DNA of 64,000 nucleotides. Origin: Acidovorax radicis N35. GTDB lineage: Bacteria > Pseudomonadota > Gammaproteobacteria > Burkholderiales > Burkholderiaceae_C. The position numbers and the translations under genes are program-made. The notes beneath the pieces are model-generated. The model saw only the letters and a program-made list of their open reading frames with translations. It did no database searches and had not been told where the DNA came from. Shown piece by piece: positions 1,561 to 57,140 of the stretch. Position 1 is the first letter of the stretch. Each line of letters opens with the position of its first letter. Where the stretch lies: positions 1 through 64,000 of the forward strand of contig NZ_AFBG01000003.1 in NCBI RefSeq assembly GCF_000204195.1. Reading direction: 5' to 3'.

Positions 1561-2544
1561 GTGAAGATTTTCTCGATTGCACGTGCGTGCGCTGTCTTGG
1601 GTGGGTTGTGGATCTCGATAGGGGGGGCGCTGGCTGCCGCCCCTCCACTGTTTGTGCTGAACTCCCTCGAAGCCAATGTCAGTGTCATTGACCCGGTGAC
1701 CTGGACCGAGACGGCCCGCATCCCGACTGGCAAGGAGCCCCACCATCTCTACCTCACGCCTGATGAGAAGTCGATCATTGTGGCCAACGCGCTGGGGGAC
1801 ACTCTGACGTTCCTGGACCCGCGCACCGCAGAGGTTCAACGCACGGTCCGGGGCATTGTGGACCCTTACCATCTGCGGTTTACTCCGGACATGAAGTGGT
1901 TCATTACAGCGGCCAATCGCTTGAATCACGTGGATTTCTACCGTTGGGATGGGAAGGAGTTGAACCTCGTCCAGCGGGTGGCCACCTCCCGGACACCCAG
2001 CCATTTGTGGATCGACAGCCGCAGCACCACGGTGTATTCCACCATGCAGGACAGCGATGAGCTGGTGGCCATCGATATCGCAACACAGACGATCAAGTGG
2101 CGCACCAAAACGGGTGCCATGCCTGCAGACGTATATGGCAGCGCAGACGACAAGCGCCTTTTTGTGGGCCTGACCGGCAGTGACAGCGTCGAGGTGTTTG
2201 ATGTCTCGGGGCGCGAGCCCTTGAGCATCAAGAAGATCAAGACGGGTAACGGCGCCCACGCCTTTCGTGCAGCGGGCGATGGGCGGCATCTGTATGTCAG
2301 TAACCGGGTCGCCAACTCCATCAGCAAGATCGACATGACCACCCAGCAGGTGGTCGAAACTTACCCCGTGCCCGGTGGGCCGGACTGTATGGAAGTATCG
2401 GCCGACGGCCGCTTCATCTACGTAAGCTCCCGCTGGGCGCGCAAGCTTTCTGTAGTGGACACGGAGGCCAAGAAGGTCGTGCGGCAAGTCACGGTGGGAA
2501 AGTCCCCCCATGGCGTATGGACGCTGCAGCACGCGCCCCGCTGA
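1561..2544 (+). CDS. Secreted YVTN-type beta-propeller protein
   Basis: This is a predicted exported seven-bladed-propeller-like protein of 327 aa from a GTG start. That start is preferred because translation from it gives a clean signal peptide: KIFSIAR, a hydrophobic stretch, then GALAA-AP. An in-frame ATG at 1489 would put 24 odd residues ahead of it. Repeats of the YVTN/cytochrome-D1 type recur about every 40-45 residues (LFVLNSLEANVSVIDP, IIVANALGDTLTFLDP, LYVSNRVANSISKID, IYVSSRWARKLSVVDT). Such proteins bind ligands or partners in the periplasm, and no catalytic site is visible. The stop overlaps the next gene's start (TGATG), so it is probably co-transcribed and translationally coupled with the deacetylase. 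Confidence 0.8.
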   Translation: MKIFSIARACAVLGGLWISIGGALAAAPPLFVLNSLEANVSVIDPVTWTETARIPTGKEPHHLYLTPDEKSIIVANALGDTLTFLDPRTAEVQRTVRGIVDPYHLRFTPDMKWFITAANRLNHVDFYRWDGKELNLVQRVATSRTPSHLWIDSRSTTVYSTMQDSDELVAIDIATQTIKWRTKTGAMPADVYGSADDKRLFVGLTGSDSVEVFDVSGREPLSIKKIKTGNGAHAFRAAGDGRHLYVSNRVANSISKIDMTTQQVVETYPVPGGPDCMEVSADGRFIYVSSRWARKLSVVDTEAKKVVRQVTVGKSPHGVWTLQHAPR

Positions 2545-3374
2545 TGGGCCACGGTGTCGGGGCACCCGCACATTGCCAGGAAAAGGCTTGGCGAGCTCAT
2601 TTTGCTATATGTTTTGTAGCTGTTAGCGCTTTTGTATCAAGCGCTAGTGCCCAAAAAGACTGTAACAAGCCCATTTACCTGACGTTCGACACCGGCCACA
2701 TGGCCGTGGCACCTTTGGTGGCAGACGTTCTGGCGCGCCAGCAAGTCCGTGTGACATTCTTCGCTGCCAACGAGCGTACCCAGGAAGGGGATGGCAGCCT
2801 TGGAGAACACTGGGCTTCCTGGTGGCGGGCCCGGGCTGCAGAGGGCCACGAGTTTGCATCACACACCTGGGATCACACCTACTGGCGAGCCGATCTGGGG
2901 ACAGCGCAGGCCCCCTCTTTCCGGGTTCGACCTTCGGCCGGACCGCGCGAGGGGCAGGATTTTGTGCTGACAGCGGCCGGGTATTGCAAGGAGATTGCCC
3001 GGGCAGCGGATCGGTTGAAGCTCGTGACCGGCAAGACACCCTTGCCCTTGTTTCGCGCCCCGGGTGGCAAGACTTCGCCGCAGTTGCTTGCCAGCGCCCA
3101 TGCATGTGGGTACACGCATGTGGGGTGGTCACCGGCAGGATTCCTGGGGGATGAATTGCCCAGTGAGAAGGCCAGCAATACGGCGCTGCTGAGCAAGGCT
3201 TTGCGGGATGTGCGCAGTGGCGACATCCTGCTTGCACATTTGGGGATCTGGTCGCGCAAGGACCCCTGGGCGCCAGCAGTGCTGGAGCCGCTGATCGCCG
3301 GACTCAAGGAGCGCGGATTTTGCTTTCGGACACTGCGAGAGCATCCCGATTACGCGCCTTTGGCAGGCCGTTGA
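2544..3374 (+). CDS. Exported polysaccharide deacetylase (NodB-fold)
   Basis: The product is 276 aa from an ATG overlapping the previous stop (TGATG). An in-frame ATG at 2517 is an alternative start. The NodB-type carbohydrate esterase fold is shown by YLTFDTGHM (motif 1, catalytic Asp about residue 49), FASHTWDHTYW (metal-binding His pair), LFRAPGGK and ILLAHLGIW. These enzymes remove acetyl groups from N-acetylglucosamine-containing polymers in the envelope. The usual second Asp of TFDDG is Thr here, a variant known in some branches of the family. Residues 18-36 look like a signal peptide ending ASA-Q and are encoded by a copy of the genome's intergenic repeat (2597-2650). Substrate unknown. 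Confidence 0.83.
   Translation: MGHGVGAPAHCQEKAWRAHFAICFVAVSAFVSSASAQKDCNKPIYLTFDTGHMAVAPLVADVLARQQVRVTFFAANERTQEGDGSLGEHWASWWRARAAEGHEFASHTWDHTYWRADLGTAQAPSFRVRPSAGPREGQDFVLTAAGYCKEIARAADRLKLVTGKTPLPLFRAPGGKTSPQLLASAHACGYTHVGWSPAGFLGDELPSEKASNTALLSKALRDVRSGDILLAHLGIWSRKDPWAPAVLEPLIAGLKERGFCFRTLREHPDYAPLAGR
2597..2650 (-). repeat. Palindromic repeat copy 1, inside a coding region
   Basis: Read on the minus strand it has the family core AGCGCTTGATACAAAAGCGC followed by TAACAGCTA and an A/T-rich tail. Unlike most copies it lies within a gene: in frame on the plus strand it encodes the hydrophobic part and cleavage site of the deacetylase signal peptide. Confidence 0.8.
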
Positions 3375-36199: not shown

Positions 36200-36200
36200 G

Positions 36201-36262
36201 CTATCGAAAATATAGCTGCTTGCGCTTGTTGGATAAGCGCTAGGGCCTGTTTTTACTTGAAT
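36201..36262 (-). repeat. Palindromic repeat copy 6
   Basis: The plus strand reads ATATAGCTGCTTGCGCTTGT then TGGATAAGCGCTAGGGCCTG, so the element is on the minus strand. It begins one base after the yihY stop. Confidence 0.82.
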
Positions 36263-47490: not shown

Positions 47491-47545
47491 TTTGCTATAT
47501 TATTTGTAGCTGCTAGCGCTTGCTGGTGAAGCGCTGGATTGCGAA
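47491..47545 (-). repeat. Palindromic repeat copy 8 (inverted relative to copy 7)
   Basis: The plus strand reads TTTGCTATATTATTTGTAGC, TGCTAGCGCTTGCTGGTGAA and GCGCTGGATT. With copy 7 it forms an inverted pair around about 70 bp of unassigned sequence. Beyond the two copies the 290-bp gap (47315-47606) shows nothing coding. Confidence 0.87.
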
Positions 47546-47606
47546 AATCCTTGAAATCGCCCGGCCCTAGGGCGAACACCGGTGCAGATACGAATGCAGG
47601 TGCCGG

Positions 47607-49322: not shown

Positions 49323-49363
49323 GATTGGCAGTCCTATGAACTTGTGTCCCTTGAAACAAGGGC

Positions 49364-49506
49364 TGCCCAGGCGAACGGCTGAACGCAGAAGGGATGAACC
49401 CCGTGCGGCACGCTTCCCAGTGGTTCACAAGAGGCAAGCCCTTGTCGGTTTCCACGTCAGCGGCGGCACCCTGTGTCCAGATGCCGCGCCTATCGCCAGT
49501 CGCGTA
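49364..49506 (-). promoter_or_regulatory. ZTP (pfl) riboswitch in the glyA leader
   Basis: On the minus strand the leader has the conserved blocks of the pfl motif in order: CGCGACTGGCGAT near the 5' end (49490-49502), ACCACTGGGAAGCGTG in the middle (about 49411-49426) and GCCTGGGCA at the 3' pseudoknot (49364-49372). A CCCTTG-TTT-CAAGGG hairpin (49348-49362) follows, then the ribosome binding site. No U-run follows the hairpin, so control of translation initiation is more likely than termination. The remaining leader up to 49603 shows nothing else. Confidence 0.88.
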
Positions 49507-49603
49507 CACCGCTAGTGTAGCTGACGTGGCGTGCGCCAATGTGTCGGGGAGCTGAGGAGCGTGCCCCGGGGAGGTGTGCTTCCCCCGGTGCGAGAAGCCC
49601 AGG

Positions 49604-54304: not shown

Positions 54305-54389
<85 letters not shown>

Positions 54390-54576: not shown

Positions 54577-54661
<85 letters not shown>

Positions 54662-57070: not shown

Positions 57071-57140
57071 GATTAATTGCTCACTAATTGATAGCTGCTA
57101 GCGCTTGATACACAAGCGCTAGCAGCTATTTTTATTGAAT
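57071..57140 (-). repeat. Palindromic repeat copy 9, near-perfect
   Basis: A perfect 17-bp inverted repeat, ATAGCTGCTAGCGCTTG (57091-57107) and its complement (57113-57129), closes on the 5-nt loop ATACA. It is the most symmetrical copy. Its T-rich right flank contains the hydrolase stop codon (57132-57134), and it could also terminate the rnr transcript. Confidence 0.9.

Follow-up and report, generated by a model that had tools for sequence, protein, structure and literature searches.

The polysaccharide deacetylase gene near the start of contig NZ_AFBG01000003.1 of Acidovorax radicis N35 opens with a leader made largely from a dispersed DNA repeat. The repeat belongs to a palindromic family of about 65 bp, and its copy lies in the gene's reading frame within the stretch analysed here (positions 1 to 64,000 of the contig, hereafter the window). 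The resulting leader appears, judged by its residues, to work as a Sec-type signal peptide in export and cleavage. The repeat is used in frame in several places, this leader being one, and the leader is common to most of the genus and to several other genera rather than an event of A. radicis N35 alone. Taken as a whole, the best explanation, which we hold with good confidence, is a repeat-derived leader that replaced an older one in an ancestor and has been under pressure at both the protein and the DNA level.

The repeat copy in the deacetylase leader

The deacetylase open reading frame (2517-3374, + strand; PF01522, E 1.3e-20) starts at either ATG 2517 or ATG 2544. A DNA profile of 38 other copies from this genome, with the leader copy left out, has the consensus TTGCTATTAATTTGATAGCTGTTAGCGCTTGTCTATCAAGCGCTAGCGGCCAATTTGACTCAAAT. 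In an nhmmer search of the 64-kb window it matches the leader in sense orientation at 2602-2663 (+) with 56 bits and E 1.1e-16, profile positions 2-61 falling on 2603-2662. R1, the repeat model used for the taxonomic family, gives 72 bits at 2602-2666. Two inverted repeats are visible on the + strand: GCTAT (2604-2608) with GTAGC (2616-2620), for which the family consensus is GCTAT...ATAGC, and AGCGCTT and AAGCGCT separated by 7 nt (2625-2645), which form the near-invariant core of the family. The pattern GCTTNN-N5-AAGCG is present in this core as GCTTTTGTATCAAGCG at 2628-2643, with GCTTTT instead of the published GCTTAT. The first-pass annotation had recognised a copy of the repeat family in frame at this 5′ end, and the search bears it out; the span it gave, 2597-2650, was slightly short, as the repeat extends past this end, through CAAAAAGAC, and stops only at the first Cys codon (2661).

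In the frame of the gene the copy encodes FAICFVAVSAFVSSASAQKD. Codons 2601 to 2660 spell F-A-I-C-F-V-A-V-S-A-F-V-S-S-A-S-A-Q-K-D, and the next residue is the mature part's first Cys. With ATG 2544 as start the repeat codons TTT (2601) to GAC (2658) are residues 20-39. From the same start the likely signal peptide spans 2544-2651 (+), with an n-region, MGHGVGAPAHCQEKAWRAH, outside the repeat, h- and c-regions supplied by it, and a predicted cut after Ala36 (ASA-Q), judging from Ala at -3 and -1 and from the orthologues. When the rules for Sec export and signal peptidase I are applied by hand, the core FAICFVAVSAFV is hydrophobic and small residues stand at -3 and -1. Residues and frame agree with the earlier proposal that the repeat encodes both the hydrophobic core and the ASA-Q site. 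Translation is unlikely to start downstream of the repeat, because the next in-frame ATG, GTG or TTG is at 2700, beyond the FDTG motif.

That motif, motif 1 of the deacetylase (2676-2696 in the window), is FDTG, LDTG or IDTG in 110 of 114 orthologues. Many members of the deacetylase family have FDDG here, so one metal ligand of the enzyme may be missing. Sequence comparison finds PdaA among its PDB relatives.

Structure and spread of the repeat family

Two small internal inverted repeats, GCTAT...ATAGC and AGCGCTT-N7-AAGCGCT, make up the element together with a 3′ arm, GGCCAATTTGACTCAAA. At E <= 0.001, searching the A. radicis N35 genome at DNA level finds 39 sites, the leader copy among them, and the best of the others has an E of 7.8e-10. 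Within the window, 9 palindromic sites (18 strand matches) carry the core pattern GCTT-N7-AAGCG, where shuffled sequence gives 0.86 strand matches on average. The profile search places other window copies of at least 30 bits at 11710-11658, 13824-13763, 20949-20888, 32311-32252, 36200-36261, 47422-47360, 47493-47555, 57078-57138 and 61960-61902; the site at 57078-57138 matches on both strands (40.8 and 45.0 bits). The sense frame is open in 92 of 119 distinct own-genome copies of at least 18 bits, window included, a share biased upward because part of the set came from a search made in that frame. As a peptide, the consensus reads A-I-N-L-I-A-V-S-A-C-L-S-S-A-S-G-Q.

Across 37 aligned copies the palindromic core is almost without variation. 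None of the five predicted pairs has both sides changed, a comparison to which near-invariant pairs lend little power. With no compensatory change, nothing points to RNA structure, and since there is also no Rfam match at the repeat, an RNA element was set aside. A repeat finder run on 2500-2750 left the element's own palindrome unreported.

Under strict filters, and with high counts given as at least 40, R1 detects the repeat in 45 of 130 genomes of the taxonomic family. Matches occur in 46 of the 47 genus genomes, and 33 genomes have at least 111; G001 has none, and G008, G013, G016, G020 and G044 carry 1-4 copies. No clean empty site was recovered for the repeat. A transposase of the kind associated with repetitive extragenic palindromic (REP) sequences (RAYT) was considered as mobiliser and gained no clear support: Y1_Tnp (PF01797) occurs in 22 of 24 repeat-rich genomes and in 19 of 24 without the repeat, and so fails to separate them, the R1-negative genomes here and in the copy-number comparison below being partly assigned by elimination (20 of 85 named). 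One genome of the family, G059, has 20 Y1_Tnp matches, several with identical scores and some of them fragments.

Orthologous leaders with and without the repeat

The deacetylase gene is found in 43 of the 47 genus genomes. The leader repeat is present at E <= 0.01 in 31 of these loci, weak in four (L015, L019, L025, L043) and absent from eight (L037, L041, L044, L046, L048-L051). Genus loci, named records and other genomes of the family together gave 148 loci, 115 of them unique, of which 114 were used (L051 was dropped). In this set the leader repeat scores at least 9 bits at 61 loci and between 0 and 9 bits at 13; 40 have none.

All 44 orthologues with a sense match of at least 15 bits carry the repeat in the gene's frame. 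Antisense matches of at least 15 bits occur at only 4 loci, where they score 15-19 bits and the sense match 39-44 bits. The distance from the Gln codon of the repeat to the Cys codon of the mature part is 3 codons in 39 of the 44 and differs in 5; the 3-codon spacing spans Acidovorax, a Hylemonella metagenome-assembled genome (MAG), a Rhodoferax MAG and further genera. This constancy across genera makes one ancient insertion the simplest reading. In G152 and G054, genomes of other genera whose mature parts are 71% identical to that of the window, the leader still scores 61.5 and 54.4 bits. The n-region outside the repeat varies in length and sequence among orthologues.

Orthologues without the repeat were expected to have other leaders, and they do: theirs are unrelated, for example MRALVVPLLSCGVLFASSVFA in L049. 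The suggestion that the repeat had created or replaced an export signal can therefore be narrowed, replacement fitting these different leaders better than creation. We infer that the repeat-free leader is the older one, a direction that the tree does not fix.

Residue shifts in the leader copies

The departures of leader copies from the repeat consensus appear to follow signal-peptide rules, as supported by a comparison of 44 leader copies (many genomes, at least 15 bits) with 89 open own-genome copies (at least 35 bits). A charged residue stands in the first 13 positions in 5 of 44 leader copies versus 42 of 89 own-genome copies (Fisher 3.8e-5), and Ala occupies -1 in 35 of 44 versus 15 of 89 (Fisher 4.4e-12), the leader-copy counts not being independent events because the species are related. 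Mean hydropathy is 2.14 in the leader copies versus 1.27 in the own-genome copies. Position -3 holds A, V, S, G, T or C in 44 of 44 leader copies.

A codon signature in coding copies

Leaders made by the repeat differ from their own genes in codon use. The GC content of third codon positions (GC3) in the leader is 0.35 at the 61 loci of at least 9 bits, 0.47 at the 13 lower-scoring loci and 0.79 at the 40 without the repeat, versus 0.76, 0.82 and 0.81 in the mature parts of the same classes. Ile is written as ATA 86 times out of 137 in repeat leaders and 15 times out of 353 in their mature parts.

The same signature is found in the middle of genes. In 30 same-genus genes for ThiL, the segment that can hold the repeat has a GC3 of 0.30-0.56 versus 0.79-0.90 for the whole genes. 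Six shorter ThiL segments of the taxonomic family that lack the repeat (56-60 aa; L387, L388, L389, L392, L393, L396) have 0.86-1.0. In acyl-CoA dehydrogenase the segment has 0.43-0.52 in the three repeat-bearing genes compared and 0.90-0.95 in four repeat-free ones. Low GC3 is thus not solely an effect of leaders. Two ThiL genes of the taxonomic family, L377 and L390, match the 62-aa length, lack any repeat score and have a GC3 of 0.93 and 0.74; the dehydrogenase L455 has the longer form, no repeat and a GC3 of 0.82.

Other in-frame copies and a second repeat-made leader

Among 38 copies found by DNA similarity, 36 have enough flank to be placed, and 6 lie inside genes in frame (L003, L008, L052, L073, L077, L079), all in the one open sense frame; a profile search named no family for L073. 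The own copy L057 and the window copy 13824-13763 were likewise placed inside genes, on the opposite strand and in a different frame, and may represent two neighbouring genes. Profile matches spanning or flanking the repeat include error-prone DNA polymerase, biotin carboxylase, a PRK11768-type kinase, acyl-CoA dehydrogenase, ThiL, UvrD, ComEC, EarP, a thioredoxin/TPR protein and a FemAB-like protein. Own-genome in-frame copies inside conserved enzymes are L008, L003, L240, L079, L216, L247, L077, L209, L271 and L052. AroA (L248) and PepN (L265) were not counted firmly, since their DNA scores are low (32.6 and 27.4 bits) and the native AroA motif presumably resembles the repeat peptide. Long open frames downstream of many copies were considered as possible fusions; by GC content per codon position and by codon models, many of them look like shadow frames.

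The most surprising enzyme copies adjoin the GGDDYE motif of ThiL and follow AGSD in acyl-CoA dehydrogenase. The ThiL segment has 62 aa (66 in one) in 30 genus orthologues, with repeat scores of 1.1 to 63.8 bits. In ThiL (L339-L396) and acyl-CoA dehydrogenase (L309-L338, L452-L455), repeat-bearing forms are about 2-10 residues longer than repeat-free ones; for a repeat of about 20 codons, this suggests that it stands mostly in place of native sequence.

A DsbD_N protein (L235) has a second repeat-made leader, MPHRLLHRLAVTLLLIAVSALWTSASAQFG. Every one of the 30 fetched orthologues scores 16-50 bits in this leader; a further 12 divide into 7 at 22-45 bits and 5 at 0-4.3 bits. A filter for more such leaders in the own genome returned 18 rows including the window, and besides the window only L235 was accepted. 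Two further starts are possible repeat-made signal peptides: L242:2-760 (-), MKFSFAIFLIAISAYGSSAEA, with only a sub-threshold MORN_2 match, and L234:692-1144 (+), MGVALILIAISAYPTSASSQ, with no Pfam family. The other rows of the filter lack support.

Leader repeat, copy number and concert between loci

The repeat in the leader goes with the presence of the repeat family in the genome. The leader was read in 55 genomes of the taxonomic family. Of the 26 that hold at least 10 copies, 14 have a leader repeat of 10 bits or more; of the 29 holding fewer, none does. Copy number correlates with the leader repeat (Spearman 0.68). Within the genus, G013, G016, G020 and G044, with 1-4 copies, lack the repeat in the deacetylase leader; that of G008 scores 10.0 bits. 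In these five genomes the DsbD_N leader scores 0-4.3 bits and the acyl-CoA dehydrogenase segment 0-1.7 bits.

Scores at the separate loci also move together. In 26 genomes that keep the family and in which all four loci were read, sense matches at the segments of deacetylase, DsbD_N protein, acyl-CoA dehydrogenase and ThiL correlate positively whichever two loci are paired (six pairs, rho 0.23-0.74 with a mean of 0.49; permutation p 0.0005), the deacetylase-dehydrogenase pair not being significant alone. Phylogeny was uncorrected here, and shared descent may be part of the cause. If real, the correlation points to a genome-wide process instead of gene-by-gene upkeep.

Other features of the window

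The gene upstream of the deacetylase encodes a YncE-like beta-propeller protein (1489-2544, +; PF21783, E 9.5e-166), and its TGA (2542-2544) overlaps ATG 2544 by one base. The window begins with the 3′ end of a large-subunit ribosomal RNA gene (1-477, +), with 5S. It also holds a ZTP riboswitch match just above gathering score (49358-49513, -) and two tRNA genes of equal score (54308-54389 and 54580-54661, -).

Discussion

The repeat-derived leader probably arose as follows. In an ancestor shared by several Comamonadaceae genera, a repeat open in one sense frame would have come to lie at the 5′ end of the deacetylase gene, in the gene's frame, displacing an older leader. The repeat's open frame, A-I-x-L-I-A-x-S-A-x-x-S-S-A-S-x-Q, would then have supplied a Sec-type signal peptide with its hydrophobic core and its cleavage region. 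Protein-level selection for export would have removed charged residues and turned Gly or Arg near the cut into Ala, Ser or Asn. A DNA-level process acting on the family genome-wide would keep the AT-rich palindromic sequence close to consensus, either by homogenisation or through selection by a trans-acting reader.

Several observations weigh against this account. The residue pattern is kept with little DNA similarity in L015 (8.6 bits), L025 (9.4) and L043 (10.0). Mean synonymous difference over all 242 pairs is 0.46 in the leader versus 0.38 in the mature part; some close pairs differ less in the leader (L009-L083, 0.07 versus 0.34), and as a test of DNA-level upkeep the pairwise comparison is mixed. 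The association with copy number is imperfect: of the 26 family genomes with at least 10 copies, 12 fall short of 10 bits in the leader, G008 has the 10.0-bit leader with 1 copy, and G143 has 9.2 bits with 2. G025, G029 and G046 have at least 111 copies yet no leader repeat, so the deacetylase leader does not need it. On the protein side, the small-residue rule at -3 is passed by both sets (44 of 44 and 89 of 89), a charged core residue persists in 5 of 44 leader copies, and the sets are unlike in genomes and score threshold, some of the 89 copies having come from a search in this frame and some lying inside genes. The orthologue tree was built quickly and leaves 43 of 111 inner branches open, and counts are given without correction for species relatedness.

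A single insertion followed by coding selection alone, with the likeness to intergenic copies merely residual, is somewhat improbable. It would account for the constant spacing, for the many copies decayed to 5-20 bits in which the residue pattern remains, and for a leader synonymous difference that is on average no lower than that of the mature part. It sits poorly with the AT-rich third positions and the retention of rare ATA, with the high scores still found in G152 and G054, and with the low GC3 in the middle of ThiL and acyl-CoA dehydrogenase, which goes beyond any codon bias of leaders.

That the sequence is mainly a DNA or RNA site, whether regulatory, translational or for chromosome structure, and encodes a leader incidentally, is unlikely. 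The near-invariant palindromic core, the codon signature and the concert of the four gene-embedded copies would all fit such a site. The leader copies, however, shed charges and gain Ala at -1, which argues that export is also selected, and neither compensatory pairs nor an Rfam match favour an RNA. Independent insertions at the same spot in several lineages, each recruited as a leader, seem decidedly unlikely: high-scoring copies are scattered among low-scoring neighbours in the tree and junction spacing differs in 5 of 44, yet spacing, frame and orientation would be expected to vary, and the spacing is identical across genera in the great majority and the frame in all. Chance resemblance of an ordinary hydrophobic leader, leaders commonly being rich in Ala, Leu, Ile and Val, was rejected as next to impossible given the E-value obtained with a model excluding this copy and a match of about 60 nt that takes in third positions and the QKD past the cut.

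Within the preferred account of a repeat-derived leader under dual pressure, one further step is offered tentatively, as a little less than an even prospect: a genome-wide DNA process, copy homogenisation or a trans-acting reader, may write the same peptide into unrelated genes, which would then undergo concerted evolution with intergenic DNA.

The kind of event is already known, both for palindromic repeats in frame and for a repeat-made part of a signal peptide. Rickettsia palindromic elements (RPE) are dispersed and occur both between genes and, in frame, inside conserved genes that are unrelated to one another (PMC2229807, PMC10969869). The repeat described here shares the in-frame copies in unrelated conserved genes. 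As these sources describe them, RPE measure about 105-150 bp, carry terminal inverted repeats and belong to intracellular Rickettsia, whereas the present element has about 65 bp, two internal inverted repeats and a home in the Comamonadaceae; unlike RPE it has one open sense frame suited to a leader, and its gene-embedded copies are common to species and genera. RU-2 of Yersinia forms part of the YPO1552 signal peptide, and similar proteins elsewhere have unrelated leaders (PMC2759123), as do the repeat-free relatives here. That case, as reported there, concerns a putative exported protein of Y. pestis and Y. pseudotuberculosis, in contrast to a conserved enzyme of dozens of species whose residue shifts fit export selection.

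The core itself appears in a 2017 survey of motif pairs, where GCTTAT(N)5AAGCG of Acidovorax ebreus TPSY has 114 copies, 5 in genes and 107 intergenic, often near gene ends, and is listed as a potential novel, mainly intergenic motif (PMC5217627). The exact form occurs in 32 of 106 own-genome copies of at least 35 bits and the relaxed form GCTTNN(N)5AAGCG in 90 of 106; element boundaries, reading frame and leader use do not figure in the parts of that survey covered here. Coxiella QMITEs, miniature inverted-repeat transposable elements (MITEs), at times lie in frame inside or at the end of open reading frames (PMC5896051), and the term "signal peptide" is absent from the main text of that paper. 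REP sequences with RAYT are extragenic, and the repeat here differs in its in-frame genic copies. No description of in-frame use of this repeat was found in the literature, in searches that made little use of the core letters as a query and left subscription journals mostly outside. What is added here is the spread over genera, the age, a conserved enzyme as host, the residue shifts and the apparent DNA-level upkeep and signature.

With 114 orthologue sequences, with and without the repeat, the deacetylase leader offers a well-sampled bacterial case of selfish-looking DNA turned into an apparent targeting signal, and one in which a neutral passenger and a useful protein-coding repeat can be told apart by testing one gene after another. 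Part of the coding sequence may be shaped by a process from outside the gene, as the codon signature suggests together with its absence from near-repeat-free genomes. If this is true, signal peptides and the loops of ThiL and acyl-CoA dehydrogenase would evolve together with intergenic DNA and not only under their own selection, and the coding signature would be lost where the repeat family is lost.
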